From contig NZ_WOTN01000001.1 of assembly GCF_010993745.1 (NCBI RefSeq), positions 685,235 to 749,234 of the forward strand: a stretch of DNA of 64,000 nucleotides, read 5' to 3'. Positions 14,966-47,852 of this stretch are shown one piece after another (within the stretch, counting starts at the first letter, position 1; every line of letters begins with the position of its first letter). The position numbers and the translations under genes are program-made. Under the pieces are notes generated by a model. That model was not told the origin of the DNA. It was given only the letters and a program-made list of their open reading frames with translations, and ran no database searches. This DNA comes from Fodinicola acaciae. GTDB taxonomy: Bacteria; Actinomycetota; Actinomycetes; Mycobacteriales; HKI-0501.

Positions 14966-16071
14966 AAATCGCCGGGATCGAGCTGCGCCGGATCGCGATG
15001 CCGCTGGTGGCACCGTTTCGCACTTCTTTCGGCACCGAGACCGAGCGCGACGTGCTGTTGGTCCGGGTCGACGCCGGCGACGCGGAGGGCTGGGGTGAGT
15101 GCGTCGCCATGTCCGAGCCGCTCTATTCGTACGAGCACGTGGACGGCGCGGCCGAGCTGATCCGGCGGTTTCTGGCACCGGCACTGGCCGCCGCGCCGGC
15201 CGTGGACGCATACGCGGTCGACGAGATCTTCCAGCCGTACAAAGGCCATCCGATGGCCAAGACGGCGGTCGAGATGGCCGTGCTGGACGCGCAGCTGAGA
15301 ATCGCCGGCATGTCTTTTGGTGGCTTTCTCGGCGCGGTACGTGACCGCGTGCCGGCCGGTGTGTCGGTCGGCATCATGGACACGGTGCCGCAGCTGCTGG
15401 CCGCGGTGGAGGGTTATCTGGCCGCCGGCTATCTGCGTATCAAGCTGAAAATCGAGCCGGGCTGGGACCTCGAGCCGGTCAGGGCCGTACGCGAGAGATT
15501 CGGTCCGGACATCCTCCTGCAGGTGGACGCGAACACCGCCTACACGCTGGCCGATGCCCGCCATCTGGCCAGACTCGACCCGTACGATCTCCTGCTGATC
15601 GAGCAGCCGTTGCCGGAAGACGACCTGCGCGGCCACGCGGAGCTGGCCAAGGTGATGCGTACGCCAGTATGCCTGGACGAGTCGATCACCTCGGCCAGGG
15701 CCGCGGCCGACGCCATCGCGCTCGGCGCCTGCTCGGTGGTGAACATCAAACCGGGCCGGGTCGGCGGCTATCTGGAGGCACGGCGAGTGCACGACGTGTG
15801 CGCCGCGAACGGCGTTCCGGTCTGGTGCGGCGGCATGCTGGAAACCGGCCTCGGCCGGGCCGCCAACGTCGCGCTCGCCGCGCTGCCGGGTTTCGTCCTG
15901 CCCGGTGACACCTCGGCCTCCGACCGCTATTACCGCGCCGACATCACCGCGCCCTTCGTGCTGGAGGACGGCCACGTACGCGTGCCGACGGCCGCCGGTC
16001 TCGGCGTCGAGATCGACACCGCGCAGCTCGCCGATCGTACGACCGCCACCGAGTGGATTCCGTTTTCCTAG
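14962..16071 (+). CDS. N-acylamino acid racemase / o-succinylbenzoate synthase family enzyme
   Basis: A 369-residue enolase-superfamily enzyme. The second Lys of the KLK motif falls at residue 163, Asp189 in QVDANTAY, Glu214 in IEQPLPE, Asp239 in LDESI and Lys263 in NIKPGR. These are exactly the positions of the catalytic and Mg2+ ligands in actinomycete N-acylamino-acid racemases. Because family members often also make o-succinylbenzoate (menaquinone), sequence alone is ambiguous. Overlap with the GNAT gene and absence of men genes favour the amino-acid racemase role. Confidence 0.88.
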   Translation: MKIAGIELRRIAMPLVAPFRTSFGTETERDVLLVRVDAGDAEGWGECVAMSEPLYSYEHVDGAAELIRRFLAPALAAAPAVDAYAVDEIFQPYKGHPMAKTAVEMAVLDAQLRIAGMSFGGFLGAVRDRVPAGVSVGIMDTVPQLLAAVEGYLAAGYLRIKLKIEPGWDLEPVRAVRERFGPDILLQVDANTAYTLADARHLARLDPYDLLLIEQPLPEDDLRGHAELAKVMRTPVCLDESITSARAAADAIALGACSVVNIKPGRVGGYLEARRVHDVCAANGVPVWCGGMLETGLGRAANVALAALPGFVLPGDTSASDRYYRADITAPFVLEDGHVRVPTAAGLGVEIDTAQLADRTTATEWIPFS

Positions 16072-16093
16072 CAGCGATGGGACAATCCTGGCG

Positions 16094-16549
16094 ATGACCG
16101 ACTCACTGCCCGAAGACCCCTTTCACCGCCGGCTGCACCACGTCGCGCCGGCGATGTTTTCCACCGATACGGCGCAGACCGGCGGCATGCGCCGGGTCGA
16201 GGCGATCAGCGGCAAGTCGGTCGGCTCGCGCAACCTGTGGATGGGGCAGACGCACGTCGCGGCGGCGACCAGGTCGGCCAACCACCACCACGGCCACTCC
16301 GAGACGGCGATCTACGTGGTCAGCGGCCATCCGGTCTTCGTGTTCGCGGACATCGACGGCGACGATCCGGGCCGCGAGATCCGGCTGGAAACCCGGCCCG
16401 GCGACTACGTTTTCGTGCCGCCGTACGTGCCGCACCGCGAGGAGAACCCGGATCCGGACGAGGAGGCCGTGGTGGTCATCGCGCGGACGACCCAGGAGGC
16501 GATCGTGGTCAATCTGCCCGATCTGTCCTGGCGATCAATCAGCGGCTGA
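16094..16549 (+). CDS. Cupin-domain protein
   Basis: A 151-residue single-domain cupin. The metal-site motif is HHHGHSETAIYVVSG at about residues 61-75, followed by the second cupin motif PGDYVFVPPYVPHREENP. The visible His and Glu residues are those that bind a divalent metal in active cupins. It is downstream of the racemase with a 22-bp gap and may be cotranscribed. It could be an isomerase, a dioxygenase or a small-molecule binding protein; no substrate is indicated. Confidence 0.8.
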   Translation: MTDSLPEDPFHRRLHHVAPAMFSTDTAQTGGMRRVEAISGKSVGSRNLWMGQTHVAAATRSANHHHGHSETAIYVVSGHPVFVFADIDGDDPGREIRLETRPGDYVFVPPYVPHREENPDPDEEAVVVIARTTQEAIVVNLPDLSWRSISG

Positions 16550-16590
16550 CGCTCTGGCGCGGCCGGTGCCGATCGGCTACCGTCGGTCGC

Positions 16591-16665
16591 ATGCCATTGC
16601 TGGTTGCTCGTCGCTATGTCGACTACATGCGACTTTGCAGCACAGCGTGTCGCCTGTCCGGCTGA
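16591..16665 (+). CDS. Cys-rich leader peptide upstream of metX
   Basis: A 24-codon ORF (MPLLVARRYVDYMRLCSTAC then RLSG and stop) that matches the actinobacterial 'putative leader peptide' pattern RR-x-VD-xx-R-L-x-S-x-x-C found before sulfur-assimilation genes. Its two Cys codons (at 16636 and 16648) would make translation sensitive to cysteine supply. It lies 53 bp before metX, which makes methionine precursors. Attenuation as the mechanism is inferred from the known family. Confidence 0.75.
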   Translation: MPLLVARRYVDYMRLCSTACRLSG

Positions 16666-16718
16666 GTTCTCATTGACCGGTTCCGGCATTCACCTCGCAC
16701 GCCGGATTATGCAGACAG

Positions 16719-17882
16719 GTGGCTGAATTGACGACTCTTCGCGCGCTCCCGCCGGCCACCGGCGCGTGGCGGCCGGGGGACGCGACCGGGCGCCGGCAGT
16801 TTTTCACCGCCGGCCGGCCGCTGCAGCTGGAGTCCGGCGACTCGCTGCCGGATTTCCAGCTGGCGTACGAGACCTGGGGGACGCTCGCGGTCGACCGGTC
16901 CAACGCCGTACTGGTGCTGCACGCGCTGACCGGTGACAGCCATGTCGCTGGCCCGGCCGGCGACGGCCATCCGACGCCGGGCTGGTGGGACGGCCTGGTC
17001 GGGCCTGGTCGCGTGCTGGATCCGGCCCGGTTCTTCGTGGTGGCGCCAAACGTGCTCGGTGGGTGCCAGGGCAGCACCGGTCCGGCCTCGACGGCGCCGG
17101 ACGGCGGGACGTGGGGGAGCCGGTTTCCGGCGCTGACCGTACGCGACCAGGTCGCCGCCGAGGCCGCGCTGGCCGACGCGCTCGGCATCGGCACCTGGGC
17201 GGCGGTGCTCGGCGGCTCGATGGGTGGCATGCGCGCGTTGGAGTGGGCCGTGACGCTGCCGGACCGGGTGGCGTCCGCGCTCGTACTCGCCGCGCCGGCG
17301 CAGGCCTCCGCCGAGCAGATCGCCTGGGCCTGGCCGCAGATCCGCGCGATCGAGGAGGATCCGGGCTGGCACGGCGGTGACTACCACGACCTGCCGGCCG
17401 GCGAGGGTCCACACAACGGCCTCGGCATCGCGCGCCGGATCGCGCACATCACCTATCGCAGCGAGCCGGAGCTGTCCGCTCGCTTCGGCCGGCAATACCA
17501 ACATGGCGAAAATCCGCGCGACGGCGGCCGTTTCGCGGTGGAGTCGTATCTGGACCATCACGCGACCAAGCTGGTGCACCGCTTCGACGCGGCCAGCTAT
17601 GTCACCCTGACCCGCACGATGAACAGCCACGACATCGGCCGCGGCCGCGGCGGCGTCGAGGCGGCGCTGCGCCGGATCACCGCTCGTACGCTGGTGGCCG
17701 GCGTCGACAGCGACCGGCTCTATCCGCTCGCGCAGCAGGCCGAGATCGCCGCCGGTGTCGGCACCGACCTGCGGGTGATCAGCTCGCCGTACGGTCACGA
17801 CGCGTTCCTGATCGAGGTCGACCAGATCGCCGCCCTGCTGACCGGCCTGGTCGCCTACCAGCGCGCGAAGTCCGACCGGTAG
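16719..17882 (+). CDS. metX: Homoserine O-acetyltransferase
   Basis: A 387-residue alpha/beta hydrolase-fold enzyme that acetylates homoserine in methionine synthesis. The family signature NVLGGCQGSTGP is at about 111-122, the nucleophile Ser167 in GGSMGG, Asp332 in VDSDRLYP and His360 in YGHDAF. Starts with GTG at 16719. A Cys-rich leader peptide ORF precedes it, fitting sulfur-responsive control. The 3' end overlaps the convergent PAP2 gene by 28 bp. Confidence 0.93.
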   Translation: MAELTTLRALPPATGAWRPGDATGRRQFFTAGRPLQLESGDSLPDFQLAYETWGTLAVDRSNAVLVLHALTGDSHVAGPAGDGHPTPGWWDGLVGPGRVLDPARFFVVAPNVLGGCQGSTGPASTAPDGGTWGSRFPALTVRDQVAAEAALADALGIGTWAAVLGGSMGGMRALEWAVTLPDRVASALVLAAPAQASAEQIAWAWPQIRAIEEDPGWHGGDYHDLPAGEGPHNGLGIARRIAHITYRSEPELSARFGRQYQHGENPRDGGRFAVESYLDHHATKLVHRFDAASYVTLTRTMNSHDIGRGRGGVEAALRRITARTLVAGVDSDRLYPLAQQAEIAAGVGTDLRVISSPYGHDAFLIEVDQIAALLTGLVAYQRAKSDR

Positions 17883-18568
17883 GTGCCGGAGTTCGGGCTC
17901 GAGTCGACGCGCCGCGGTGGTGGGCCGTCGGCCACGGACGCCACGCTGGTCGTGCCGAGCACCGGCGCGAGCAGCGTCACCGACCGCAGTCTCTGTACGA
18001 GCAACGTCACCGGCCGCGCCACCAGCAGAGATGCCAGCGCGACCGCGCTGCCGAGCAGGAAGCCGGCGACCACGTCGTGCGGATAGTGCGCGCCGACGAA
18101 CACCCGCGACGCGCCTTCGGCCAGCGCGAGCGGCACCGCCGCCCAGACGAGCTTGCGCCAGATGAGGATCAGCGCGACCGCTCCGGCGGCGGCGAGTACG
18201 GCGTGGTTGCTTGGAAACGACCAGTCGGCAGCGGCCGGACACGGGTCGATCGTCTGTACGCCGGCGATCGCGCGGCACGGCCGCAGCTCCTGCACGAGAT
18301 CCTTCAGGACCGTACTCAGGACGTACGCGACGCCAACCGCCACGACGCCGAGAGCGACGAAGGCCATGCCACGCGCCGGACCGCGTCTGGCTCTCCACCA
18401 GGCCAGGCCGAACAGGCCGAAAATCACCAGCAAACCGAGTTGCGTGCCGATCGAGGCGGCCACCTGGACCAGGAACGGCGATTTTCCGCCTGCCTGAGCG
18501 ATCCCCTGATAGAGGCCACCATCGAACCAACCGCCTGGCACCGTTGCCGCGGCCAACGCCATCTGCAT
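17855..18568 (-). CDS. PAP2-family membrane phosphatase
   Basis: A 237-residue integral membrane phosphatase. The three PAP2 motifs are present in order: KDLVQELRP (K-x6-RP), SFPSNHA (PSGH-type, here PSNH) and SRVFVGAHYPHDVVAG (SR-x5-H-x3-D). About five to six hydrophobic helices surround them. It probably removes a phosphate from a lipid such as phosphatidate or undecaprenyl pyrophosphate at the outer membrane face. It is convergent with metX and not part of an obvious operon. Confidence 0.87.
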   Translation of the reverse strand: MQMALAAATVPGGWFDGGLYQGIAQAGGKSPFLVQVAASIGTQLGLLVIFGLFGLAWWRARRGPARGMAFVALGVVAVGVAYVLSTVLKDLVQELRPCRAIAGVQTIDPCPAAADWSFPSNHAVLAAAGAVALILIWRKLVWAAVPLALAEGASRVFVGAHYPHDVVAGFLLGSAVALASLLVARPVTLLVQRLRSVTLLAPVLGTTSVASVADGPPPRRVDSSPNSGTYRSDFARW

Positions 18569-18638
18569 GCACTCGACATTATGAATTCACCGTGCGTCCA
18601 GCATCGGTCCTCCGGTTGATCACCGTCATACCGCCGGC

Positions 18639-19091
18639 TTACAACGGATCCAAAACATTGTTGGTGTCGCGGCGATAGATGATCGAGCTGCGGAAGCTGA
18701 CGATGTCGCGGCGGTCGCTGAGCTTGTCGACCAGAAACGCGTGCAGGTGGTCGATGTCGCGTACGGCCACGTGCACCAGGAAGTCGTCGTTGCCGGCCGT
18801 GCCGAACACGGTCAGCACCTCCGGAAGGTGGCGGACCCACTGGTGGAACGAGTCGATCACCGACCGGTTCAGCGGTCGCACCTGCACGCTGACCAGCGCC
18901 TGCACGTGCCGGTTGAGCGCGGCCAGGTCGACCTCGGCGTGATAGCCGCGGATCACGCCGCGCTGGCGCAACAGCCGCGTCCGTTCCAGACAGGTCGACG
19001 GCGCGATGCCGATCTTCTCGGCGATCTCGCGGTTGGACTGGCGCGCGTCTTCCTGTAAGTGCCGGACGATCGCCGAATCAACTTCGTCCAT
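18639..19091 (-). CDS. Lrp/AsnC-family regulator
   Basis: A 150-residue regulator with an N-terminal HTH (DARQSNREIAEKIGIAPSTC, about residues 14-33) and a C-terminal RAM ligand domain ending RRDTNNVLDPL. ATG 19091 follows a GGAGGAG site 12 bases upstream. It is divergent from a valine-dehydrogenase-type gene across a 106-bp gap, the layout in which Lrp proteins sense branched-chain amino acids and control the adjacent dehydrogenase. Confidence 0.88.
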   Translation of the reverse strand: MDEVDSAIVRHLQEDARQSNREIAEKIGIAPSTCLERTRLLRQRGVIRGYHAEVDLAALNRHVQALVSVQVRPLNRSVIDSFHQWVRHLPEVLTVFGTAGNDDFLVHVAVRDIDHLHAFLVDKLSDRRDIVSFRSSIIYRRDTNNVLDPL

Positions 19092-19197
19092 CGCGATCAA
19101 TCTCCTCCGCTGCCGAATTATCTTCGGCAGAGCCGTCGAAACGATGGCCATCAGCTTAATCTCACTGCCATCCATCGCTCGTTGTTTGGAGGCGTAC

Positions 19198-20226
19198 GTG
19201 GCGTGGGAGCATCAGCAGTTGGTCGTCCGCCGCGGTGAGCGGACCGGCCTGCCGGTCGCCGTCGCGATCCACTCGACCGTGCTCGGCCCGGCCGCCGGCG
19301 GCTGCCGGCTGTGGCAGTATCCGGACTGGCGTGCCGGCGTCGAGGACGTGTTGCGGCTGTCGAAGGCGATGACGTACAAGTGCGCCGTCGCCGGACTTTC
19401 CTACGGTGGCGGCAAAACAGTCATTCCGCTGCCGGCTGGCCGGGTGCTGACCACCGCCGAACGCGAGGCGGTGCTGGAAGACGCGGCCGACATCGTCGAC
19501 TCGTTTGGCGGCGCCTATCTGACCGGACCGGATGTCGGCACGTCGTCGGCCGACATGGTCGTGATGCGCCGCCGTACGCCATACGCGTATTGCCTGCCGG
19601 AGAGCGAAGGCGGCACCGGATCGTCGAGCGGACCGACCGCCGTCGGCGTGCTCGCGGCGCTGCGAGCCGCCGCGCGTACGGTGCTCGGCACGGACGATCT
19701 GGCCGGACGTCGCGTCGTCATCAGCGGCTTGGGGTCGGTCGGAGCGATCGTCGCGCGATCGCTGGCCGGTGGCGCCGAGGTCGTCGTGTCCGATGTGGAC
19801 GATGCCAAGCGGCGTACCGCCGAGGAACTCGATCTTTCCTGGGTGGAGCCCGAAAAGGCGCTGGCGACACCGGCCGACATCATCGTGCCGGCGGCGGTCG
19901 GCGGGGTGCTGAGTCCGGAGACGGTCGCGCGGTTGGACTGCGCTTTGGTGGTGGGACCGGCAAACAACCAGCTCACCGACGACTCGGTGGCCGGTGCGCT
20001 GGCCGGCCGCGGCATCGTGTGGGTGCCGGATTTCGTTGCCAGCGCTGGGGGAGTGATCTACACGTTGTCTCGCGAGTCGGACCGTCTCGACCACGACGGC
20101 GCGATGGCCAGAGTGGAGCGGATCGGCGACACGGTCGGCACGCTTTTGGCGCAGGCGCACGCAAACCGTTCGACCCCGCTGGCCGAGGCCATCGCGCTGG
20201 CCGACCGGAGGCTCAGCGGGTCCTGA
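19198..20226 (+). CDS. Leucine/valine/phenylalanine dehydrogenase family
   Basis: A 342-residue NAD-dependent amino acid dehydrogenase that oxidatively deaminates an amino acid to its 2-oxo acid. The substrate-binding and catalytic lysines lie in KAMTYKCAVAGLSYGGGKTV (Lys61 and Lys73), the family GPDVGTSSADM follows, and GLGSVG marks the NAD fold. The GTG at 19198 has GGAGG five bases upstream and aligns with family N-termini; the upstream ATG at 19144 would add an unsupported extension. Catabolism of branched-chain amino acids under control of the divergent Lrp is the likely role. Confidence 0.87.
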   Translation: MAWEHQQLVVRRGERTGLPVAVAIHSTVLGPAAGGCRLWQYPDWRAGVEDVLRLSKAMTYKCAVAGLSYGGGKTVIPLPAGRVLTTAEREAVLEDAADIVDSFGGAYLTGPDVGTSSADMVVMRRRTPYAYCLPESEGGTGSSSGPTAVGVLAALRAAARTVLGTDDLAGRRVVISGLGSVGAIVARSLAGGAEVVVSDVDDAKRRTAEELDLSWVEPEKALATPADIIVPAAVGGVLSPETVARLDCALVVGPANNQLTDDSVAGALAGRGIVWVPDFVASAGGVIYTLSRESDRLDHDGAMARVERIGDTVGTLLAQAHANRSTPLAEAIALADRRLSGS

Positions 20227-20770
20227 GCATGGCGAGGGCGCCGGAAATGGCTCTGTCGAAGGCATCCGGCGCCTGGGCCGCGCGAGCCAGCACGTAGCCG
20301 CCTTGCAGCATCGCGACCAACGCGCTGGCAGTCTCGTATGCATCGAGGTTGTCGTTGATCTCGCCGGCATCCTGTGCTTGCGCGACGACCTCGGCGAGCC
20401 TTGTCTGCAGCCAGCCGATCGTCGCGTCGACCGGCTCGCGCAGCGTCGGACTCGCCACAATGTCGGGATCCTGTGTCAGGCCACCGATCTGGCAGCCGCG
20501 TAGGACGTCGCGCTCGCGGGTCAGATAGGCCTCGATGCGCCGCAATGGCGTACCAGCGCCGGAAAGGTGTCGTTCGACCTCGGCGCGCAGCTCGTCGGCG
20601 CTGCGCCGGACCGCGGCCAACGCCAGGTCGGCCTTGCCGGAGAAGTGGTGATACATGCTGCCCTGGCCGGCGCCGGCGCGCTGCTGGATGGCTTTCGGGC
20701 TGGTGCCGACATAGCCGCGTTCCCAGAGCAGCTGCCGCGTGCTCTCGATCAGCTTCTCCGCCGTGTCCAT
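20213..20770 (-). CDS. TetR-family transcriptional regulator
   Basis: A 185-residue repressor with HTH GTSPKAIQQRAGAGQGSMYH and FSGKADLALAAV in the first 55 residues, and a C-terminal domain of the LmrA/YxaF-like TetR type. A perfect 16-bp palindrome (20781-20796) lies 10 bp before its start codon, so it very likely represses itself. The MarR gene ends just beyond that site, on the same strand. It overlaps the convergent dehydrogenase by 14 bp. Confidence 0.88.
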   Translation of the reverse strand: MDTAEKLIESTRQLLWERGYVGTSPKAIQQRAGAGQGSMYHHFSGKADLALAAVRRSADELRAEVERHLSGAGTPLRRIEAYLTRERDVLRGCQIGGLTQDPDIVASPTLREPVDATIGWLQTRLAEVVAQAQDAGEINDNLDAYETASALVAMLQGGYVLARAAQAPDAFDRAISGALAMLRTR

Positions 20771-20780
20771 CCAGCCAGTT

Positions 20781-20796
20781 TACCTACCGGTAGGTA
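20781..20796. promoter_or_regulatory. TetR operator palindrome
   Basis: TACCTACCGGTAGGTA is a perfect 16-bp palindrome placed between the marR stop and the tetR start. Length, symmetry and position are those of a TetR-family autoregulatory operator. Confidence 0.7.
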
Positions 20797-20802
20797 CACG
20801 GA

Positions 20803-21246
20803 TCAGGGCTCCCGGCGTGCCATGTCCGACAGCGTCCGCAGTGCGCGCAGAAAACCCTTCCGGTCGGCGGCCGGCAGCGTCGCCAGGAGTTCGTTCTCGC
20901 GCGCCTGGATGTCGGCGCGTACGGCACGGCGCAGCTGGCGGCCGGCGTCGGTGATCGCCAGCAGCCGTACCCGCCGGTCGTCCGGATCCGGTTCGCGGCT
21001 GATCAGGCCGCGGTCCTGCAGCTCGTCGAGGTAGGCGATGATCCGCGTCTTGTCGGCGCCGATCGCCTCGGCGAGCGCGGCCTGCGTGCGGATCGGGTTG
21101 TCATCCGGCCTGTCATCGAGCGCGGTGAGCACCGAGTAACCCCACATCGAGACGCCGTGCCGGTCCAGCACCGGATGCTCGGCGGCGATCAGCGACCGTA
21201 CCAGCGGAGCCAGCATCGCGGCGAGGTCGGGACGCGCGTCGGTCAT
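20803..21246 (-). CDS. MarR-family transcriptional regulator
   Basis: A 147-residue winged-helix regulator. The recognition helix region is QAALAEAIGADKTRIIAYLD, followed by the wing LISREPDPDDRRVRLLAITD, which is diagnostic for MarR. It is divergent from a DinB-like gene; a pair of direct repeats in the 52-bp gap overlaps that gene's start codon. Regulation of the neighbouring thiol-dependent enzyme is plausible. It probably senses a phenolic or oxidant. Confidence 0.88.
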   Translation of the reverse strand: MTDARPDLAAMLAPLVRSLIAAEHPVLDRHGVSMWGYSVLTALDDRPDDNPIRTQAALAEAIGADKTRIIAYLDELQDRGLISREPDPDDRRVRLLAITDAGRQLRRAVRADIQARENELLATLPAADRKGFLRALRTLSDMARREP

Positions 21247-21270
21247 GTCGGTGAAGATACCTGTTGACAG

Positions 21271-21302
21271 ATCATAAGCGCACGCACATCATAAGCGTAT
21301 GC
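21271..21302. promoter_or_regulatory. Direct repeats between marR and the DinB-like gene
   Basis: ATCATAAGCG occurs at 21271 and again at 21288, each followed by a YAYGC-like sequence (CACGC, TATGC), with a 17-bp offset. A TTGACA -35 precedes at 21264-21269. The second copy contains the ATG of the rightward gene (21299), suggesting a leaderless transcript and a MarR operator in one. Confidence 0.5.
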
Positions 21303-21889
21303 CTATTACTTCGATCGATGTCGTCGCGCTCGACGCGCAAGCCGTCCGTACCACCATCGACCTCGTTTCCCTTGCCGCCGCTGACGATTGGCGCAAGCCG
21401 ACGCCATGCGAAGGTTGGACGTTGTACGGCCTCGTCGCCCACATGACCGCACAGCACTACGGCTTCGCCGCCGCCTCGACCGGCGTTGGTGAGCTGTCAG
21501 CATGGGGCTGGCGACCGCTCGGCGACGACCCGGTCGCCGCGTACCGAGCCGCTGCCGAACACGTGCTGGCGGCCTTCGCCGAAGACGGTGTGCTAGAACG
21601 GATTTTCCCGCTGCCGGAGTTTGGCGCGGAGGTCCCCGGCGCCCAGGCCGCCGGCTTCCACCTGGTCGACTACGTCGTACACGGCTGGGACGTGGCGAAA
21701 ACTCTCGGCGTGTCAGTGGAATTCGCGCCAGAGGTGCTCGACGCGACGCTGGAAATCGCCAAAGCGGTGCCGGACGGCGAGATGCGCCGGGCCCCCGGCT
21801 CATCCTTCGGGCCGGTGGTGGCATATAGCGGCGGCGTCAAGCTTGACCACATCGTCGCCCTCCTTGGGCGTTCGCCTTCCTGGCGCTGA
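21299..21889 (+). CDS. TIGR03086-family DinB-fold protein (mycothiol-dependent enzyme-like)
   Basis: A 196-residue four-helix-bundle protein. The motifs are TPCEGWTLYGLVAHM near residues 34-48 and HLVDYVVHGWDVAKTLG near 120-136, supplying the metal-binding histidines seen in mycothiol-dependent maleylpyruvate isomerases and relatives. It may act in thiol-dependent detoxification. The ATG lies inside a candidate MarR operator. A large repeat element begins immediately after its stop. Confidence 0.82.
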   Translation: MPITSIDVVALDAQAVRTTIDLVSLAAADDWRKPTPCEGWTLYGLVAHMTAQHYGFAAASTGVGELSAWGWRPLGDDPVAAYRAAAEHVLAAFAEDGVLERIFPLPEFGAEVPGAQAAGFHLVDYVVHGWDVAKTLGVSVEFAPEVLDATLEIAKAVPDGEMRRAPGSSFGPVVAYSGGVKLDHIVALLGRSPSWR

Positions 21890-22757
21890 CGATATTCGGC
21901 AGTGGGTCCGTGTGTGGGCCGCGGGCTGGGTAGGGGTTTAGCGGGTTGCGTTTTCTGTTTGGTGCGTTGGGAGGGTCGGGCTCTTCATTTTTGGTGCGTT
22001 TGGGGGGTGGTGGCGCCTGCGCGGCGGGCGCTCCTGCGCGGAGGGCGACCTCAAGGGGAGGGGCGCGCGGGGTTTCGTTGTTGGTTGGGTTGGGTGCGGC
22101 GTGTGCGGTTTCGTACGGCGTGTGGTCCGGTTTGTCCGTTCTCCTCCGTCGGAGTCCGGAGGATGAGCACATGTGCTCAAGCAAAGCTCGCCGACGGGGG
22201 AGAACGGACAAACCGGACCAGGAGCGTGGATGGATCGCCGGAGTTGCGGTGGCGTCCCGGTCTGCGGCGGGAAGATCCAATATGTGGGACGAGAAGCAGA
22301 TGTAGCGCTAAATGTTCGACTTGAGAGGTTTGTAGATGGCATGAATGTCGAGTTACTTGCGCTGGACGCAAGGAACAAGGCCTTCACGCCACAACGATCC
22401 CCGGAGGCTGTGACGGGTGTGACTACTGAGGCTGATAATGCTGTTGTGACTGCTCGGCTGCGACAGACGTCCGTTTTGATGTCTTGTTAAACAAGTATTA
22501 CGCAGTCAGCGGCTACGGCACGATCGTTTGGCGTCCAGACCGACGGGTTGCTTCCCATGCGTGCCCGGACAACCAGCCCCGCCGCAAACGCGCAGCCGAC
22601 CCCCATGCACACCGATTGGCATCCACGCGCCCCTCCCTTGAGGTCGCCCTCCGCGCAGGAGCGCCCGCCGCGCAGGCGAAAAACCAACCACCCCTGACGC
22701 AACAACCAGGAGACGCACCCACCCCGCCACCACAACCCAGCTAAGGGTCCCCGCGCC
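21890..22757. repeat. Dispersed composite repeat, copy B (largest, with terminal inverted repeats)
   Basis: This 868-bp gap has no credible gene. It starts with a G/T-rich tract (about 21900-22014) and ends with an A/C-rich tract (22678-22745), so the ends are complementary in composition. Inside are a 52-53 bp inverted repeat (22015-22067 with 22626-22677, one indel), a 28-bp hairpin (22125-22218), block 1 (22249-22460), a 47-bp block (22463-22509) and a 37-bp block (22522-22558). Short ORFs across it use codons unlike the neighbouring genes. Related copies occur at about 11385, 28440-28890 and 46200-46540. Confidence 0.8.
22125..22218. repeat. 28-bp inverted repeat hairpin within copy B
   Basis: Arms 22125-22152 and 22191-22218 match at 27 of 28 positions around a 38-base loop. 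The loop itself contains the perfect palindrome TGAGCACATGTGCTCA (22164-22179). No counterpart was seen in the other copies. Confidence 0.8.
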
Positions 22758-23399
22758 TCAGCTGCTACCAGTCGTGCTGCTGCTCTGCCCCGGATCCCAA
22801 CCCCGACTAATCTGCACTGTCCCATTTTGCAGCGTGCCGGTGATCGACTCGCGCTGGTTGCCGGAAGTGAAGATCACCGAGATGGAGTTGTCCATCTTGA
22901 TGGTGCCGGCCGACCAGCCGTCTGCCGCGTTTGGGGCTGCGCTCAGCGTCGTCGCGGTGTAGGTGAAAGTCACCGAGCTGGCGCTGTGTTCGGCGTTGAC
23001 CACCATGGTTTTCGGCTTCGGTGGCGGAGCGGTGCTCGGCTTGGTCGGGCCGGTGCTCGGGTTGGGGTGGCTGCCGGGTGGCTGCGCGCCGGGGTTGGTT
23101 TGGTGGTGGTTGCTGGGGCTGCCGCTCGGGCTCGGCGACGTGCTCGGCGAGCCGGACGCGTCGACTGGGGAATCGCTCGGATCGCCGGGTGTGGTGCTCG
23201 GCGTTGGGCTGGTGCTCGGCGTCGAGGCCGCGTTCGTGCGGTAGGTGTCCGCGTTGGAGCTGGCGAGCAGCTGCGGAATTCCGTACCAAATCGCGACATT
23301 TATCAGCACACCGGCCACGGCGACACCGGTGATCGCAAGCCGTCGGGTCCCTTTCACGCGGCGACCATACTGGATTGCCGGCAGGCCACCGAAAGGCAC
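22758..23399 (-). CDS. Membrane-anchored Ser/Thr/Pro-rich secreted protein of unknown function
   Basis: A 213-residue protein. A short basic N-terminus is followed by one hydrophobic segment (AITGVAVAGVLINVAIWYGI), then a long Ser/Thr/Pro linker (about residues 55-130) and a compact beta-rich C-terminal domain of about 70 residues that I do not recognise. It is therefore probably an extracellular domain on a stalk. The start may be GTG 23399 or a later GTG beginning VKGTRR. It stands alone between repeat copy B and the PhyH gene. Confidence 0.65.
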   Translation of the reverse strand: MPFGGLPAIQYGRRVKGTRRLAITGVAVAGVLINVAIWYGIPQLLASSNADTYRTNAASTPSTSPTPSTTPGDPSDSPVDASGSPSTSPSPSGSPSNHHQTNPGAQPPGSHPNPSTGPTKPSTAPPPKPKTMVVNAEHSASSVTFTYTATTLSAAPNAADGWSAGTIKMDNSISVIFTSGNQRESITGTLQNGTVQISRGWDPGQSSSTTGSS

Positions 23400-23532
23400 C
23401 CTCAGCTAACAATTTTCCGGTAATACACGGTAATAACGCAATGACGACAAGTGAAAACCGCCACGGTCGGCCGGCCGTTGTTTTCAGCTTTTGCCGTGAA
23501 TTGCCGGAATTCCACCGTTCAGCTGGCTGAAC

Positions 23533-24366
23533 TCACTCGTGTTTACGTGTGACGGTGTGTCGCCCGGTCATCGCGATCGCCGGCTCACCGTCCGCATCCA
23601 CCCACACGCCGCATTCGCCGCCGCCCTCGCTGACGTCCAGCTCGACGGCCGAGCCGTCCATCCGCAGGACGGGGTGGTAATACTGCGCGACCTGGCGCGC
23701 GTCGGCTTGGATGTAGTGGCCGATCAGAGCTCGCCGGAAGCGGTCGGTGCTGCGGTTGGGGAGGCTGCCGTGCACCAGGGATCCGTTGAAGAACAACACA
23801 TCTCCGGGTTCCATCTCGACCTCGACGGCGTCGTGGCGGTCCGGCAGCGGCACGGTCACGTCGGTGAAGCTGACCGCGGTGTCGGCTTTCTCGGTGCACA
23901 GCACCGGCCAGCGCTGGCTGCCCGGCACGACCATCATGCAGCCGTTGTCGGCATCGGTACGGTCCAACGCCGTCCACGCGGCCATGCAGGTGCCCGGCTC
24001 GACCTTCAGATAGAAGTTGTCCTGGTGCAGCGCCTGCCCGCGTGAGCCGGCCGGCTTGAAATAGAGCATCGACTGCACCGCGTACGGCTCCACACCGAGC
24101 AGCCCGACCAGTCGGTCGCGGATCCGCGGGTCGAGCAGCCACCGCAGCGTCGTCTCGTCCCAGCGGTGCATCTGCGCCAGCCGTGGATAGCGGCGCAGCG
24201 GATCGCGTGCCGTCGCGTCCGGACCCGACTCGCGGTGCCGGACCGGCGCGCGATGGCGGACGGCCATGTAGTGGTCGCGCAGTTGTGCCGTCTCCTCGGC
24301 GGAAAACAGTCCGCGTGCGACGACGTATCCGTCGAGGTCGAACTGAGTTGCGGACGAAACGCTCAT
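23533..24366 (-). CDS. Phytanoyl-CoA dioxygenase (PhyH) family oxygenase
   Basis: A 277-residue Fe(II)/2-oxoglutarate-dependent oxygenase. The HxD metal motif is in LHQDNFYLK, the substrate region MAAWTALDRTDADNGCMMVV precedes the double-stranded beta-helix core, and the distal His with the 2-oxoglutarate Arg lie in HGSLPNRSTDRFR. Start ATG 24366 follows GAGGAG; the longer frame is unlikely. It is divergent from an AraC regulator that probably controls it. The substrate is unknown. Confidence 0.87.
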   Translation of the reverse strand: MSVSSATQFDLDGYVVARGLFSAEETAQLRDHYMAVRHRAPVRHRESGPDATARDPLRRYPRLAQMHRWDETTLRWLLDPRIRDRLVGLLGVEPYAVQSMLYFKPAGSRGQALHQDNFYLKVEPGTCMAAWTALDRTDADNGCMMVVPGSQRWPVLCTEKADTAVSFTDVTVPLPDRHDAVEVEMEPGDVLFFNGSLVHGSLPNRSTDRFRRALIGHYIQADARQVAQYYHPVLRMDGSAVELDVSEGGGECGVWVDADGEPAIAMTGRHTVTRKHE

Positions 24367-24457
24367 CGGCGATGCTCCTCGGCAATCCGTTGGTACGCTC
24401 ATCGTCGGTTCCACAGAGGCTTTCGGCCAGTCATGATCGACGCAAGGAGTCGGACTT

Positions 24458-25264
24458 TTGACTCATCCGCCGCTGGCACCGCTGGAGCTGACGCTGCTTT
24501 CACCGCCGACCTACTGGCGCTGCGAGCCGAGCTGGTCGTGGCATTCCCGGCCGCTGCCCGACCATCTGCTGTGGTGTGTGCTGGAAGGCGTTGGCGAGCT
24601 GCGGCTCGACGGTCGTACGGCTGCGTTGCACGCCGGCGTCTGCGCGATCTTCGCGCCTGGCGACGCACCCGTGGCCACCCACGATCCGCTCCGCCGGCTG
24701 GTCGTTTTCGGCATGCATTTCTCGGTGGCCGGCGACGACACGGTCGTGCCGCCCGGCCGCTGGCAGTCTGTGGCCGACCGTGAGCTGCTGGCCGCGCTGG
24801 CGCGCCGCTGCGAGACGAGCTATCGGCGCGGCGACGCGCTCGGCCGCCGGCACGCCGCACTCGGCCTGGAACACCTGGTTTGCCTGCTGTGGGAGGACAA
24901 TCTGCACCCGGCCGGCCGGGTCGACCAGGTGTTGGCCGACATCGCCGCGGCGATCCGGCACGACCCCGGCCGGATGTGGACGGTCGCCGAGTTGGCGGCT
25001 CGCGCGTCGCTGTCGCGAGCGCAGTTCACTCGCCGGTTCGCCGCGTACACCGGTGACCCGCCGATCCGCTATCTGACTCGCGCGCGCGTCGATCGAGCGC
25101 GCCACCTGCTGACCGAGACCACGATGTCGGTGACCGAGGTCGCCGCCGCGCTCGGCTATCGCGACCTCGGCTATTTCGGCCGGCAATACAGACAGTTCCT
25201 CGGTCACGCGCCGAGCCGCGACCGGCATCGCGACCACGATCCGGCCGGCATGATGGAGGCATGA
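24458..25264 (+). CDS. AraC-family transcriptional regulator
   Basis: A 268-residue regulator with an N-terminal cupin-like sensor domain and two C-terminal HTH motifs: WTVAELAARASLSRAQFTRR and MSVTEVAAALGYRDLGYFGR. The TTG start at 24458 is supported by an AAGGAG site about 10 bases upstream and agrees with the family N-terminus. It is divergent from the PhyH gene and overlaps the next gene by an ATGA, so it probably controls both in response to a small molecule. Confidence 0.88.
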   Translation: MTHPPLAPLELTLLSPPTYWRCEPSWSWHSRPLPDHLLWCVLEGVGELRLDGRTAALHAGVCAIFAPGDAPVATHDPLRRLVVFGMHFSVAGDDTVVPPGRWQSVADRELLAALARRCETSYRRGDALGRRHAALGLEHLVCLLWEDNLHPAGRVDQVLADIAAAIRHDPGRMWTVAELAARASLSRAQFTRRFAAYTGDPPIRYLTRARVDRARHLLTETTMSVTEVAAALGYRDLGYFGRQYRQFLGHAPSRDRHRDHDPAGMMEA

Positions 25265-25875
25265 CACTGAAACGGAAAGAGGCATCGGACGCGGTCACCG
25301 ATCTTGGCTGGCGGCTGGTGCTCGGCGCCTTCCGCGCGTACGTCCCGGCGTCGTCGATCGCGGACGCGGCGCGGATCGCGCTCAGCGCCGCGGAGATCGG
25401 CGACGAGCGGCTGCGGATCGACGTACGCGCGGACGGCGTGCACCTGACCATCGAGGTGCACGCCTCGCGAGTGGGAGCGGCCGAGGTCGAGCTGGCGAAG
25501 GCGCTGTCGGCGGCGCTGCCGACCACACCGGACGGCGTGCAGGCGATCGAGTTGGGGATCGACGCCATGGACATCCCGGCGGTGTTGCCGTTCTGGGAAG
25601 CGGTGCTGGCGTACGAGCGGGTCGGCGACGCACTGGTGGATCCGGCCGGTCTGGGACCGGCTGTCTGGTTCCAGCAGATGGACGAGCCGCGCCGCCAGCG
25701 CAACCGGATCCACTTCGACGTGTCGGTGCCGCACGACCAGACGGAGGCGAGGATCGCCGCCGCGCTGGCCGCCGGCGGCACGCTCGTCTACGACAAGGAG
25801 GCGCCGGCCTTCTGGGTCTTGGCCGACCCGGAAGGCAACGAAGCGTGCGTCACCTGCTGGCAGGGCCGCGATTAG
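25261..25875 (+). CDS. VOC (glyoxalase-like) protein with pterin-dehydratase-like N-terminal domain
   Basis: A 204-residue two-part protein. The N-terminal 90 residues resemble the 4a-hydroxytetrahydrobiopterin dehydratase fold (region LRIDVRADGVHLTIEVHASR), and the C-terminal half is a VOC/glyoxalase_6 domain (IELGIDAMDIPAVLPFWEAV, then IHFDVSVPHDQ). The PCD active-site HHP pattern is not evident, so the first domain may not be catalytic. Its ATG overlaps the araC stop. Confidence 0.78.
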   Translation: MTLKRKEASDAVTDLGWRLVLGAFRAYVPASSIADAARIALSAAEIGDERLRIDVRADGVHLTIEVHASRVGAAEVELAKALSAALPTTPDGVQAIELGIDAMDIPAVLPFWEAVLAYERVGDALVDPAGLGPAVWFQQMDEPRRQRNRIHFDVSVPHDQTEARIAAALAAGGTLVYDKEAPAFWVLADPEGNEACVTCWQGRD

Positions 25876-25881
25876 GGGCCT

Positions 25882-25999
25882 CTAGAGTCTGTCTCCATAT
25901 TCTGCGGGGCGATAGCCGAGCCGCTGTCACATCTTTCTCGGGCCGCCTGACGGCAGGATCTCGACTCTCATCCCCCCGGAATATGGAGACAGACCCTAG
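25882..25999. repeat. 118-bp inverted-repeat element between convergent genes
   Basis: Arms 25882-25902 and 25979-25999 match at 20 of 21 positions, separated by 76 bases. The stop codon of the leftward lipoprotein gene (25996-25998) lies inside the right arm. It may be a bidirectional terminator or a small non-autonomous insertion. Confidence 0.7.
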
Positions 26000-26325
26000 G
26001 CCTGCGTCACGTGCAGCACGACCTTCTCGGAGGTGATTTCTTGGACGGTCACCTTCAGGCCGCTGACCTCGACCGGCTGGCCGGCGGTCACCTGGACCCG
26101 CTGGCCGGCCACCTCGACGGTCACCTGCTGGCCTTGTACGCCGACCAGTTTTGCCTTGACGCCGAGGATGTTGGCCTCCGCGTTGACACCTTGGTCGAAG
26201 GTGATCGTGCAGCCACTCGTGGTGCAGTTGGTGGCAGTGCCGTTGGAGTTGCCGCCGCAGCCGGCGGCGAAAGCGAGGGCTAGGGTGGCCAGAAGGACGC
26301 CGACGATGGTTCGTACGGAGTGCAT
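25996..26325 (-). CDS. Small lipoprotein of unknown function
   Basis: A 109-residue protein with a signal peptide ending in a lipobox (AFAAGCGG, Cys at about 23), followed by a beta-rich domain rich in Val and Thr with repeated turns. The mature part includes two Cys in TNCTTSGCTITF that could pair. It resembles small DUF-type exported proteins of actinobacteria but no function is recognised. Its 3' end runs into the 118-bp inverted repeat. Confidence 0.7.
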   Translation of the reverse strand: MHSVRTIVGVLLATLALAFAAGCGGNSNGTATNCTTSGCTITFDQGVNAEANILGVKAKLVGVQGQQVTVEVAGQRVQVTAGQPVEVSGLKVTVQEITSEKVVLHVTQA

Positions 26326-26345
26326 GTGCCAAGTGTAAAAGATCC

Positions 26346-27230
26346 TTGGGACGTCTGGTGACCAGCCCGTACCGCCGGCTCCAGGTGCCGGTCCCCGGCG
26401 GTGGGCTGGCGGTCGGCGTCTGGGGTGTCGGCGAGCCGCTCACTCTGCTCGTCCACGGCATCACCGGTTCGCATCTGGCCTGGTCACTGGTCGCCGAGCA
26501 GGTGGCGGGCGACGGGAACGGGATGGGGACCGGCACGGTCGCCGGTGTCGATCTGCGCGGCCGCGGCGACAGCGGCTCGGTGGCCGGACCGTACGGCTTC
26601 GCGCGGCACGCCGACGACTGCGCGGCCGTGCTCGACCGGCTCGGCGCGGCCGAGGTCGTGGTGGCCGGTCACTCGATGGGTGGCTTCGTGTCGCTGGTGC
26701 TGGCCGACCGGCATCCGGAACGGGTGAGCCGGCTGGTCCTCGTCGACGGCGGACCACCGCTGCCGCCACCGCCTGGCGACACGGCCGAGGAGCGGATCGC
26801 CACCGTCCTCGGACCGGCGGTGCAGCGGCTGCGGATGCGGTTTCCGAGCCGGGTCGCCTATGCCGACTTCTGGCGTGCGCATCCGGCCTTCGCCGAGTGG
26901 AACGCGGCCATTCAGTCCTATGTGGACTATGACCTGACCGGCACCGAGCCGGAGCTGCGCAGCAAGGTCAGCGAGGCCGCCGTACGCGAGGACTCGGTCG
27001 ACATCCTGGAAGGTGACGCATTGCGCGAGGCGTGGCAGCGGCTGCGCCACGACGCGGTTTTCCTGCGCGCCGAAAGGGGTCTGCTCGACCAGCCGGTGCC
27101 GCTCTATCCGGAGGTCGCGCCGATCGAGGCGAAGATGCCGGTGCGTACGCTCGCCGGCACCAACCACTACACCATCCTGCTGTCGGAGAAAGGGGCCGCG
27201 CCGGTCGCCGCGGCGATCAGGACCGGCTGA
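26346..27230 (+). CDS. Alpha/beta hydrolase
   Basis: A 294-residue hydrolase. LLVHGITGSHLAW is the oxyanion-hole HG region, GHSMGGF near residue 103 carries the nucleophile Ser, and AGTNHYTILLS near the end supplies the catalytic His. The start is either TTG 26346 or GTG 26358; neither has a strong ribosome site. It could act on an ester, epoxide or lactone; no partner genes give a clue. Confidence 0.8.
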   Translation: MGRLVTSPYRRLQVPVPGGGLAVGVWGVGEPLTLLVHGITGSHLAWSLVAEQVAGDGNGMGTGTVAGVDLRGRGDSGSVAGPYGFARHADDCAAVLDRLGAAEVVVAGHSMGGFVSLVLADRHPERVSRLVLVDGGPPLPPPPGDTAEERIATVLGPAVQRLRMRFPSRVAYADFWRAHPAFAEWNAAIQSYVDYDLTGTEPELRSKVSEAAVREDSVDILEGDALREAWQRLRHDAVFLRAERGLLDQPVPLYPEVAPIEAKMPVRTLAGTNHYTILLSEKGAAPVAAAIRTG

Positions 27231-27236
27231 CCGTGT

Positions 27237-27248
27237 TTTAGCGCTACA
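27237..27248. promoter_or_regulatory. TTTAGCGCTACA palindrome at the promoter of the secreted I36-like gene
   Basis: This 12-mer is the reverse complement of TGTAGCGCTAAA, the core found in repeat copies B and D, and overlaps a TACACT -10-like hexamer (27245-27250). The dyad resembles LacI-family half-sites. Confidence 0.4.
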
Positions 27249-27280
27249 CTGACCGCCGTTGTTTCGACTATGGAGGTCTT

Positions 27281-27652
27281 GTGTCCCGTAAACTTGGAAA
27301 AATCGCCGCGGTAGCCGCGGCGGCGAGCGTCGCGAGCGGAGTGCTGTTCGCGGCCAGTCCGGCCGAGGCGGCGTACGATTGCCGCTATGGCAAGGTCTGC
27401 CTCAACACCGGCACCTTCGGCAACGGCAGTCGCTGGGAAGTGCCGAGCTGTGGCGAGCACTGGTTGCCGTCCGGCTTCGCCTACCATACGCATTCCGTGC
27501 AAACCTGGGGAAACTCGGTGACGCTCTTCTGGTTTGACCAGGACGGCCAGGGTGGCTACATCCACCAGATCGGCTTCGTCGGCCAGAACGCGCAGACCAA
27601 CCTCGACGCGCAGACCGCCGACCTGCTCAACTACGTCCGCGTCAACTGCTAG
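27281..27652 (+). CDS. Secreted small protein, peptidase-inhibitor I36-like
   Basis: A 123-residue exported protein. A signal peptide of about 30 residues (ends ASPAEAA) precedes a Cys-containing domain, YDCRYGKVCLNTGTFGNGSR, reminiscent of SMI/I36 peptidase inhibitors of Streptomyces. Six Cys would be expected, but only four are seen (DC, VC, SC, final C). GTG 27281 has GGAGG four bases upstream. It is followed by a strong hairpin. Confidence 0.72.
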   Translation: MSRKLGKIAAVAAAASVASGVLFAASPAEAAYDCRYGKVCLNTGTFGNGSRWEVPSCGEHWLPSGFAYHTHSVQTWGNSVTLFWFDQDGQGGYIHQIGFVGQNAQTNLDAQTADLLNYVRVNC

Positions 27653-27664
27653 GTCAATGCCACG

Positions 27665-27710
27665 TCGAGTGTGGGGAAATCGGCATCCCACCAGATTTCC
27701 CCACACTCGA
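27665..27710. terminator. Bidirectional hairpin terminator
   Basis: Perfect 17-bp arms (27665-27681 and 27694-27710) around a 12-base loop, between the convergent secreted-protein gene and the maltokinase-cap gene. Confidence 0.8.
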
Positions 27711-27737
27711 TGCGTCGCCAACCACAGGACCGAGTGG

Positions 27738-28343
27738 TCAGCGGATGCCGGCGAGTACGCCTGAGCCGCCGGACCACGCACCGGTGAGCGTGTCCGTGAC
27801 GGAGATCTCCGTCCCCACGACGCGTACGACCACAAGCTCAACGCCGCCGCCGCGTACGACCGTCGTCCCGCCGTCATCGTGGCAGGTCACGGCATCGATC
27901 ACCGGTGAACGGCCGGCCGAGCCACTGCCGGCGACCGTCGCGGACGGCTCGCGGCGTTGCTGCTGGCCGTCCGTCGCGAAGATCTCCTCCGCCTGGCCGC
28001 CGTCGCCGACCACGACCGACGCGGCCGCCGCCACCCACACCGGATCGGCGCAGCCGTCGTAAACCCAGCGTTTCCCCAGCACCGAGTGCTCGGTCGTGCC
28101 GACCAGGAAGTCGTCGGCGCCGGCCAGGGGAGCATCCCGATATGTCAACGGTGTGTGCAGGACGGGACCGTCGGACCGCACGATGAGAGCCTCCAGGCCG
28201 ACCTCGCCGGCCGGGTCGTCGAAGCGGTACGCGCCGAGCCGTCGTACGTTCGGATCGCCGGTGAACCAGGACCGGCCCGGCAGCCACGCCGCCAACAGCT
28301 CGAGTTTGGTCGGACTTATCGTCGCGGAATGGATGAGAGCCAC
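27738..28343 (-). CDS. Maltokinase N-terminal cap-like domain protein (CG0192-related)
   Basis: A 201-residue protein. The N-terminal MALIHSATISPTKLELLAAW and WLPGRSWFTG, then GAYRFDDPAGEVGLEALIV and HSVLGKRWVYDGCADPV, match the maltokinase N-terminal cap family, but the kinase domain is missing. Stand-alone versions occur in actinobacteria next to glycogen or trehalose genes; none is nearby here. Its role in maltose or trehalose phosphorylation is therefore uncertain. Confidence 0.78.
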   Translation of the reverse strand: MALIHSATISPTKLELLAAWLPGRSWFTGDPNVRRLGAYRFDDPAGEVGLEALIVRSDGPVLHTPLTYRDAPLAGADDFLVGTTEHSVLGKRWVYDGCADPVWVAAAASVVVGDGGQAEEIFATDGQQQRREPSATVAGSGSAGRSPVIDAVTCHDDGGTTVVRGGGVELVVVRVVGTEISVTDTLTGAWSGGSGVLAGIR

Positions 28344-28994
28344 GCGTCAGACTCTAACAAATTTCGCGGTTTGGTAAGGAATTCCCGCTGCTCGAGGAGC
28401 AAGTACGACTGGCGGCAGTTGAGACGCCCGGGCTTCCTGGGGCATGCATCCCGTAGCTGGTTGTAGTGGTGGTGTTGGTTTCTGTGTCGTGTTGCGTGAG
28501 TGGTTGCGTCGTCCGTTTTGTTGCGTTGGGTGGATGGTTGGGTTTTCGCCTGCGCGGCGGGCGACCTCAAGGGAGGGGCGCGTGGATGCCAATCGGTGTG
28601 CATTGGGGGTGCGGCTGCGCGTTTGTGGCGGGGCTGGGTTTTCTGGGCAAGCCAGGTCACCTTTGGAAGCAACCCGTCGGGATGGACGCCAAACGGTCTT
28701 CCTGTAGCGCTACATGTCCGTTTTGCCGGCTTGTCTGTTGATGGCAAGGCCTACTTACGTGCGCCTGACGCACGCATGGGGGCCTTGCGAACATTGAGGG
28801 CGGCCGGGGTGGTGCTGGTGTGGCTGACAATGCGGGTGAGACGGTCTGATCGCGTAATGCTTGGTTAACAAGACATCAAATCGGGTGTTTAGTGCGGACG
28901 ACTCTCTTGCTGCGGGTATGTTCGGCTTGTCGTTGCTTGTCGGCGCCGACCCTGACGAATCTCGGTTTTGGCTGGTCGGGGTTAGTGTGGCGAG
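28344..28994. repeat. Dispersed composite repeat, copy C (opposite orientation, rearranged)
   Basis: This 651-bp gap has no gene. On the minus strand it matches copy B: the GC-rich arm and its flank (about 28545-28640), the 37-bp block (28665-28698) and the 47-bp block (28846-28885). The palindrome TGTAGCGCTACA (28703-28714) and about 45 bp of the block-1 head follow in plus orientation. A hairpin (28744-28788) and about 60 bp of unique sequence sit between these and the 47-bp block. The modules are thus in a different order from copies B and D. Confidence 0.75.
28744..28788. terminator. Hairpin inside copy C, related to the rbpA/pgl hairpin
   Basis: Outer arms GCAAGGCC/GGCCTTGC and inner arms CGTGCG/CGCACG with a 6x6 internal mismatch. 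The right arm matches the right arm of the hairpin at 54939-54987 at 18 of 20 positions, so the two hairpins appear to share an origin. Confidence 0.55.
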
Positions 28995-29849
28995 ATGGCG
29001 GTGGAGGCGAACAGGCGGCAGATCGAAGGCGGTGTCCACCGGGACCTCGCCGAGACGATGACCTACGGCGGCTACCTGCATCTGGAGGAGCTGCTCGGCG
29101 CGCAGCATCCGATGAGCAGGCCGGTGCACCACGACGAGATGCTGTTCATCATCCAGCACCAGACATCCGAGCTCTGGATGAAGCTGCTGATCCACGAGCT
29201 TCGCGCGGCTCTGCGGCACATCGCCGCCGACGAGTTGGCGCCGGCGCTCAAGCTGCTGGCCAGGATCAAGCACATCCAGCGGCAGCTTTTCGAGCAGTGG
29301 GCCGTGCTGGAGACACTCACGCCGATCGAGTACGCCGAGTTTCGCCGGTTTCTCGGCCGTTCCTCCGGTTTCCAGTCGGTGCAGTATCGGCTGGTGGAAT
29401 TCATGCTCGGCAACAAAAACGCTGACATGCTCGAGGTGTTCCGGCACGACAAGGTGGCGTTGGCGGAGTTGTCGGAGGCGTTGCGTACGCCCAGCCTCTA
29501 CGACGAGTTTCTGCGCTATCTCGCGCGACACGGCCACGACGTGCCGGCCGAGATCGTGCGGCGGGACGTGACCGAGGCGTACGTGCCGCGGCCGAAACTC
29601 GTGCCGGTGCTCAAACGCATCTATGAGAACCGGCAGGACTTCTGGCCGGAATACGAGACGTGTGAAGAACTGGTGGACGTCGAGGAAAGCTTCCAGCTCT
29701 GGCGGTTCCGGCACATGAAGACGGTGGAGCGGGTGATCGGTTTCAAACCGGGGACCGGCGGCTCCAGTGGCGTGGCGTTTCTCCGGGCCGCGCTGGACCT
29801 GACTTTCTTCCCGGAGATCCTGGCCGTTCGGACCGAAATCGGACGGTGA
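28995..29849 (+). CDS. kynA: Tryptophan 2,3-dioxygenase
   Basis: A 284-residue heme dioxygenase that cleaves tryptophan to N-formylkynurenine. The N-terminal [17 protein letters not shown], the [15 protein letters not shown] segment and the heme-ligand His240 in [14 protein letters not shown] followed by KPGTGGSSG are all present. Full family length. No kynureninase or formamidase gene is adjacent, so the rest of the pathway must be elsewhere. Confidence 0.93.
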
Positions 29850-30095
29850 CCGAGATCGCGCGTACGGACCGCCGCGGCTAGCAGTATGCTTGCCGAGGCC
29901 GCCGGGTCGGGTGCCTGGCGTCTTGGCCTTGGTTCGAGGATGTCAGGAGGTGGGGCTCGTCATGCCGAGTCAACCTCCGAGTAGTCGTCGCTAGAGACGA
30001 CGACACTGCGCGCAATTCCCTCACCCCACTTCCCTTGGTGACGGCCGTCGTGTCCGCGTGACACCGCTTCACCCAGTGCTGAAGAAGGCATCCTC
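29850..30095 (+). promoter_or_regulatory. Possible structured mRNA leader of corA
   Basis: This 246-bp stretch has several potential stems, for example TCGTCG/CGACGA around CTAGAGA near 29980-30005. It does not match the M-box magnesium riboswitch consensus that I know, so it is offered only as a structured leader. A polypyrimidine stretch precedes the gene. Confidence 0.25.

Positions 30096-46196: not shown

Positions 46197-47852
<1,656 letters not shown>

Follow-up and report, generated by a model that had tools for sequence, protein, structure and literature searches.

The near-perfect inverted repeat at positions 22014-22678 of the window (the whole 64,000-nt stretch of Fodinicola acaciae DNA that was analysed) is the middle of a foldback element and not the terminus of a 663-bp MITE, as an earlier note on this DNA had proposed. 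The element is non-coding, about 0.8-1.05 kb long, and forms one long quasi-palindrome with nested hairpins. With moderate confidence, we regard it as a lineage-specific, non-autonomous foldback element with a spread or retention linked to the replication fork.

In a repeat search of the window, the arms of this copy (copy B) were recovered as 49 nt at 22014-22062 and 22630-22678, 96% complementary and separated by a spacer of 567 nt. When one G indel was allowed, the pairing extended to about 22067/22626, confirming the inverted repeat with a single indel that had been described at 22015-22067 and 22626-22677. On the plus strand, copy B consisted of a left outer array (21935-22013) of two degenerate G/T-rich units of about 33 nt, of the GTTGCGTTT-GGGGGTGGT type; the left arm (22014-22067; repeat search and left-arm profile); an unstranded nested hairpin (22123-22220) with 49-nt arms that were 82% complementary; the conserved core (22236-22527; 319 bits with the core profile); a right module leading from the core to the right arm (22528-22625); the right arm (22626-22678; repeat search and right-arm profile); and a right outer array (22679-22745) of about two degenerate A/C-rich units, the reverse complement of the 33-nt unit. 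Elsewhere the nested hairpin was missing, short or enlarged by an additional loop of about 60 nt, and the right module, short in copy B, also occurred in a longer form that restored the palindrome.

The two outer arrays paired with each other in the fold. Positions 21935-22745 folded as a single RNA hairpin of -462.5 kcal/mol compared with a shuffle mean of -349.5 kcal/mol (z -16.7; 0 of 20 shuffles as stable), in agreement with the earlier suggestion that imperfect pairing continues into the G/T-rich left and A/C-rich right flanks. Folding as DNA gave a z of -15.5, and a larger copy folded to -667.7 kcal/mol, a value calculated without shuffles. An Rfam search of window positions 15000-30000 yielded no family match for the element, only sub-threshold matches to microRNA models at the nested hairpin (32.3 and 26.5 bits, where the gathering thresholds are 95 and 90), which were attributed to chance.

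Units of the same kind were dispersed over the host genome (8.86 Mb in four contigs, C1 to C4). The core motif had 106 matches and the reversed control none, and the arm motif, with three mismatches allowed, had 105 matches and its reversed control none. A profile search of retrieved regions, chosen from 100 listed of the 106 core matches plus the arm sites, detected 97 cores above 100 bits, 68 of them at 240 bits or more; these 68 are referred to as closer copies and the rest of the 97 as diverged relatives. At least two closer copies from later regions (C1:2242637, minus strand, and C4:1390808, plus strand) stand outside the statistics. At least 44 left arms and 53 right arms were found; both are lower bounds, because the filter missed arms that can be seen in the sequence (two or more on the left and one or more on the right). 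The contrast between 105 arm matches and none for the control, together with the presence of both arms on at least 35 of the 68 core copies, indicates that the inverted repeat is not a product of chance.

Alignment of 30 copies gave the order of outer G/T-rich units, arm, optional nested hairpin, core of about 290 bp, short or long right module, opposite arm and A/C-rich units, with about one to six outer units on each side that decayed away from the arm. Among the arm matches listed, left arms were mostly GGGGAGGGG and right arms mostly GGGAGGGGG. Since these forms prevailed across the listed copies, the one-base indel is a trait of the family and not damage to copy B, and the consistent difference between left and right argues that the arms were not homogenised by template switching. 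In the 18 best pairs listed, copies were 84.7-91.3% identical over 780-1065 aligned bases, and most pairs aligned through the arms and inner arrays, indicating a unit of about 1 kb. Homology in these pairs extended past the arms by as much as 116 bp on the left side and 213 bp on the right. Because homology between copies runs tens to about 200 bp past both arms, the unit does not end at 22015 and 22677, and the 663-bp unit was not supported. Nearest-neighbour identity among the 68 copies had a median of 90.5% (range 85.6-96.6%); near-identical copies were absent, so there was no sign of current activity or of a brand-new copy.

Within the window, a second closer copy was located at 46218-46509 (plus strand, 285 bits; core without matched arms) and a diverged relative at 11376-11585 (plus strand, 126 bits; core only). 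A half element at 28547-28900 (minus strand) combined a right arm with the right module and a portion of the core; its arm carried the 17-bp deletion that had been noted for copy C. Half types bearing only the right arm also occur in the family, of which this copy is an example.

The element was absent from a relative at sites occupied in the host. In a same-genus genome (G001, 74% complete), one collinear contig (C82) had gaps of 58, 250 and 570 bp without the element where the host carries copies at C1:3201573, 3205264 and 3214155; in one of these gaps the host arrays span nearly stop codon to stop codon. These absences indicate that the family spread in the host lineage. Vertical inheritance of the whole gap was not seen at these three sites, all on the one contig, and the view of a palindromic, dispersed, non-coding and mobile-looking unit was borne out. 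At the site of copy B itself, window positions 20213-23247 corresponded to 575 bp in G001, where the element and three neighbouring genes were missing together, so this is no simple empty site. The missing genes include those for a regulator of the MarR type and for a protein resembling maleylpyruvate isomerase. The two genomes also differed in content near the copies at about 11.4 and 28.5 kb. One G001 gap at an element site of the host (L234 4478-4728) was read as carrying a different inverted-repeat element, GTGTCCTGGGTTCGAAGTTCG ... CGAACTTCGGGCGCAGGACAC.

A DNA search of 60 relatives detected no copy in G001 and, besides the host's own genome, a single 40-nt match (in G002), which by eye lay within an ordinary long reading frame and was rejected. 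The exact core pattern had no match in genome contigs of 84,980 species (GTDB) or in viral contigs, and the exact 22-nt unit pattern had none in genome contigs, collections from which the host's own or very near records may be absent. Plasmid and phage records likewise held no match to the element, and a literature search on palindromic and foldback repeats, actinobacterial MITEs, orientation bias and terminators found nothing on it.

Unexpectedly for elements of this sort, the closer copies were mostly aligned with replication. Replichores were set from GC skew and dnaA (on C4), with the contig order inferred from skew, as the chromosome is not closed. Skew was positive on C2 and on C1 below about 1.4 Mb, and negative on C3 from 0 to 0.9 Mb and, beyond 1.5 Mb, over most of C1. 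The exceptions were the C1 3.0 Mb bin (+0.0007) and the C3 1.5 Mb bin (+0.0084), the latter being the sole bin read beyond 0.9 Mb there, a single region without a closer copy. Closer copies were absent from C1 1.06-1.88 Mb, around the inferred terminus, and the exact turning point of the skew is therefore immaterial. The top strand ran along fork movement in 57 of the 68 closer copies (p = 1.3e-8); in 300-kb bins, 14 had the same orientation, one the opposite and two were ties (p = 0.001). By gene context, 23/27 copies at convergent sites were fork-aligned, as were 17/19 at ++, 9/12 at -- and 8/10 at -+ sites, and 457 of 837 genes of the same regions were fork-aligned. Transcription was ruled out as the cause of the orientation because the bias holds at convergent sites and in copies that oppose both neighbours. 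The bias was first seen on early copies and then counted on a wider set from the same genome, and the count is thus not an independent test.

The diverged relatives showed no bias (16/27 fork-aligned; two C4 relatives of the 29 were left out because C4 holds the origin). The lack of a bias in this older group counts against a reading based on insertion only. Moreover, the GC skew of the element itself was positive, averaging +0.067 over 35 full copies, so the orientation may be selected or mutational and not set at insertion.

Under the favoured reading of a fork-tied foldback element, spread or retention would be coupled to replication. The top strand would most likely lie on the lagging-strand template, exposed as a folding single strand, and a putative enzyme acting in trans may move or copy it; gene-end gaps would be the places where insertions are tolerated. 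A stronger version, which we put forward as a tentative possibility, is that these elements represent a novel type of mobile DNA in bacteria: foldbacks of kilobase size that would move as the folded lagging-strand-template strand without a detected Y1 transposase, by a host-encoded or other fork-linked process, and that are fork-aligned on both replichores. Elements that exploit replication, such as Tn7 with TnsE and IS200/IS605, are marked by alignment with the fork. Its presence in a large family of foldbacks for which no enzyme was recognised makes it testable whether big palindromes can themselves be the substrate of fork-linked spread. Kilobase palindromes are regarded as unstable DNA, and how they persist at about a hundred places becomes a second, testable question.

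The anatomy was compared with that of known systems. In the eukaryotic foldback elements (Drosophila FB and Galileo), long inverted arms contain tandem short repeats around a non-coding middle, the length varies and there is no enzyme of their own. The element shares each of these features, including long inverted arms partly made of tandem short repeats, but it is bacterial, intergenic and about 1 kb long, with a conserved core whose orientation relative to the fork is maintained. Like the RAYT-linked REP, BIME and REPIN sequences, the family is made up of mosaic palindromes, around 100 in number, that lie in intergenic DNA and frequently at gene ends; however, its unit is about 1 kb and not the 20-40 bp given for REP palindromes (PMC3733652), and no Y1/RAYT enzyme was found. 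Orientations of Tn7/TnsE and IS200/IS605 follow replication and favour termination regions, according to PMC5371812. The likeness to these systems is in orientation only: no such enzyme was tied to the family, and unlike insertion that favours the far side of the chromosome, closer copies are absent around the inferred terminus. The element also has long inverted arms, whereas IS200/IS605 derivatives have subterminal hairpins without inverted terminal repeats. A search of the host genome for PF01797 (Y1) gave no match, with controls detected in 5 of 14 genomes, and an IS200/IS605 or RAYT origin was ruled out for want of a Y1 enzyme. PF04986 (Y2) also gave no match, but its controls were detected nowhere and this result says nothing.

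The main rival is an ordinary MITE, that is, a deletion derivative of a DDE-transposase IS with a fork preference, whose autonomous parent has been lost. PMC5371812 reports that binding of the sliding clamp, together with similar orientation biases, is a feature of several IS families, which makes a MITE of this type the chief competitor. The MITE reading proposed earlier stood in so far as the units are short, dispersed in many copies and non-coding inside, have inverted arms and are missing from the relative. It failed on the sharp ends and the parent. The arms of the element are internal, with homology and decaying tandem units continuing outside them, and the outer units fade without a sharp edge, so that the short target duplications expected earlier could not be defined, the boundaries at the three G001 gaps being blurred. 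A transposase with matching terminal repeats was not found either: in the retrieved regions, which took in nearly all of the 100 arm sites listed (of 105), no called gene was flanked by arms on both sides. Nested hairpins also set the element apart from MITEs, and strong fork orientation is not a MITE-defining trait. We consider this explanation unlikely.

Somewhat more doubtful is an element useful to the host, either a two-way transcription terminator or insulator or a replication-polar signal, that was kept and oriented by selection. Such a role would fit the placement, since convergent gaps made up 37 of 91 element-bearing gaps compared with 103 of 692 others (p = 4e-8), and 96 of 97 cores were outside genes as called by a simple codon-usage script. 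A location between convergent gene ends is consistent with an intrinsic terminator, the transcription stop being putative. Core conservation, highest at columns 71-80, 111-150 and 231-270, came in blocks that persisted in the diverged relatives, as a useful element would also have it. On the other hand, the element was absent from the three collinear G001 gaps and from the DNA search of that genome, its orientation tracked the fork and not transcription, and almost no copies were origin-proximal (C4, C3 beyond 0.7 Mb and C2 below 0.8 Mb: 0/68 closer copies, or 1/70 with the later regions, namely C4:1390808). Covariation of core columns mostly tracked subfamilies and gave no convincing stem support, and a conserved RNA fold of the core was rejected on that ground; given the lack of an Rfam family match as well, a structured non-coding RNA was not supported. 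A coding core was excluded, as nearly every copy was interrupted by stop codons in each of the six frames.

Other actinobacterial genomes contain hairpins whose stem tip is similar, which also speaks for a host-useful element. A sequence-only model of 47 cores had matches in 11 of 101 genomes including the host's, weak outside it, with 5 to 21 matches in each of five genomes of one other genus (g33, family f14), which we take to be Amycolatopsis. Most of the matches inspected were perfect hairpins of small size in intergenic DNA, and in some a core-like stretch came next. Those of g33 resembled the element core in a stem tip CTTGCGCTAGGCGCAAG followed by a GTTGTGACTGGTGTGGCA-like stretch; they differed in being short and perfect, and their matches to the core were weak (E 1e-6 to 1e-2). 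Judged from these weak scores, the core appears to belong, in enlarged form, to an older actinobacterial hairpin family. In the foldback reading that we favour, the core would derive from such short intergenic hairpins, and the family shows how these may grow into large nested structures.

Growth of the arrays and palindromes in place by slippage and template switching, with copies kept alike by gene conversion, would account for the variable number of 33-nt units and their outward decay, and for mosaic copies that share one half only (e.g., L009/L024). Template switching did occur: the 25-pair core stem had 5-13 mismatches in 92 of 94 copies, 0 of 25 in C3:520046 and three in C3:510734, with sequence copied in opposite directions, so that these two hairpins were rewritten by template switching at a quasi-palindrome. 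Events of this type are described in PMC8794818. However, homology blocks of about 1 kb that take in the arms and inner arrays and recur at unrelated sites, and G001 gaps of 58-570 bp without any element require movement of the whole unit, and growth in place is very improbable. Hardly credible is a retron-type reverse transcriptase whose single-stranded products would be incorporated at lagging strands, a route that would yield the observed orientation: the only reverse transcriptase found (415 aa, retron-family, C4:365843 region, L235 1252-2499; best PADLOC matches RT_other and RT_outgroup) had none of the element's parts (core, arm or unit) in the 14 kb of C4 that were examined around it, leaving a retron origin unsupported.

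Several smaller features were recorded. A diverged-core subfamily comprised C1:271924, C1:1263657, window 11376, C2:177478 and C2:564759; a CAAGTGCGTGACAG-like left flank was common to its aligned copies, and two more were picked up by the core motif. A terminator-like hairpin at window 28744-28790, within the half element, had a 50-nt match in G001, and the copy at C2:1271222 (L024) had a similar hairpin in its left flank. A further small palindromic element, TCTGTCTCCATATTC ... GAATATGGAGACAGA, was present at window 25886-26001, and 42-47 nt of it matched six places in G001 at 84-87%.
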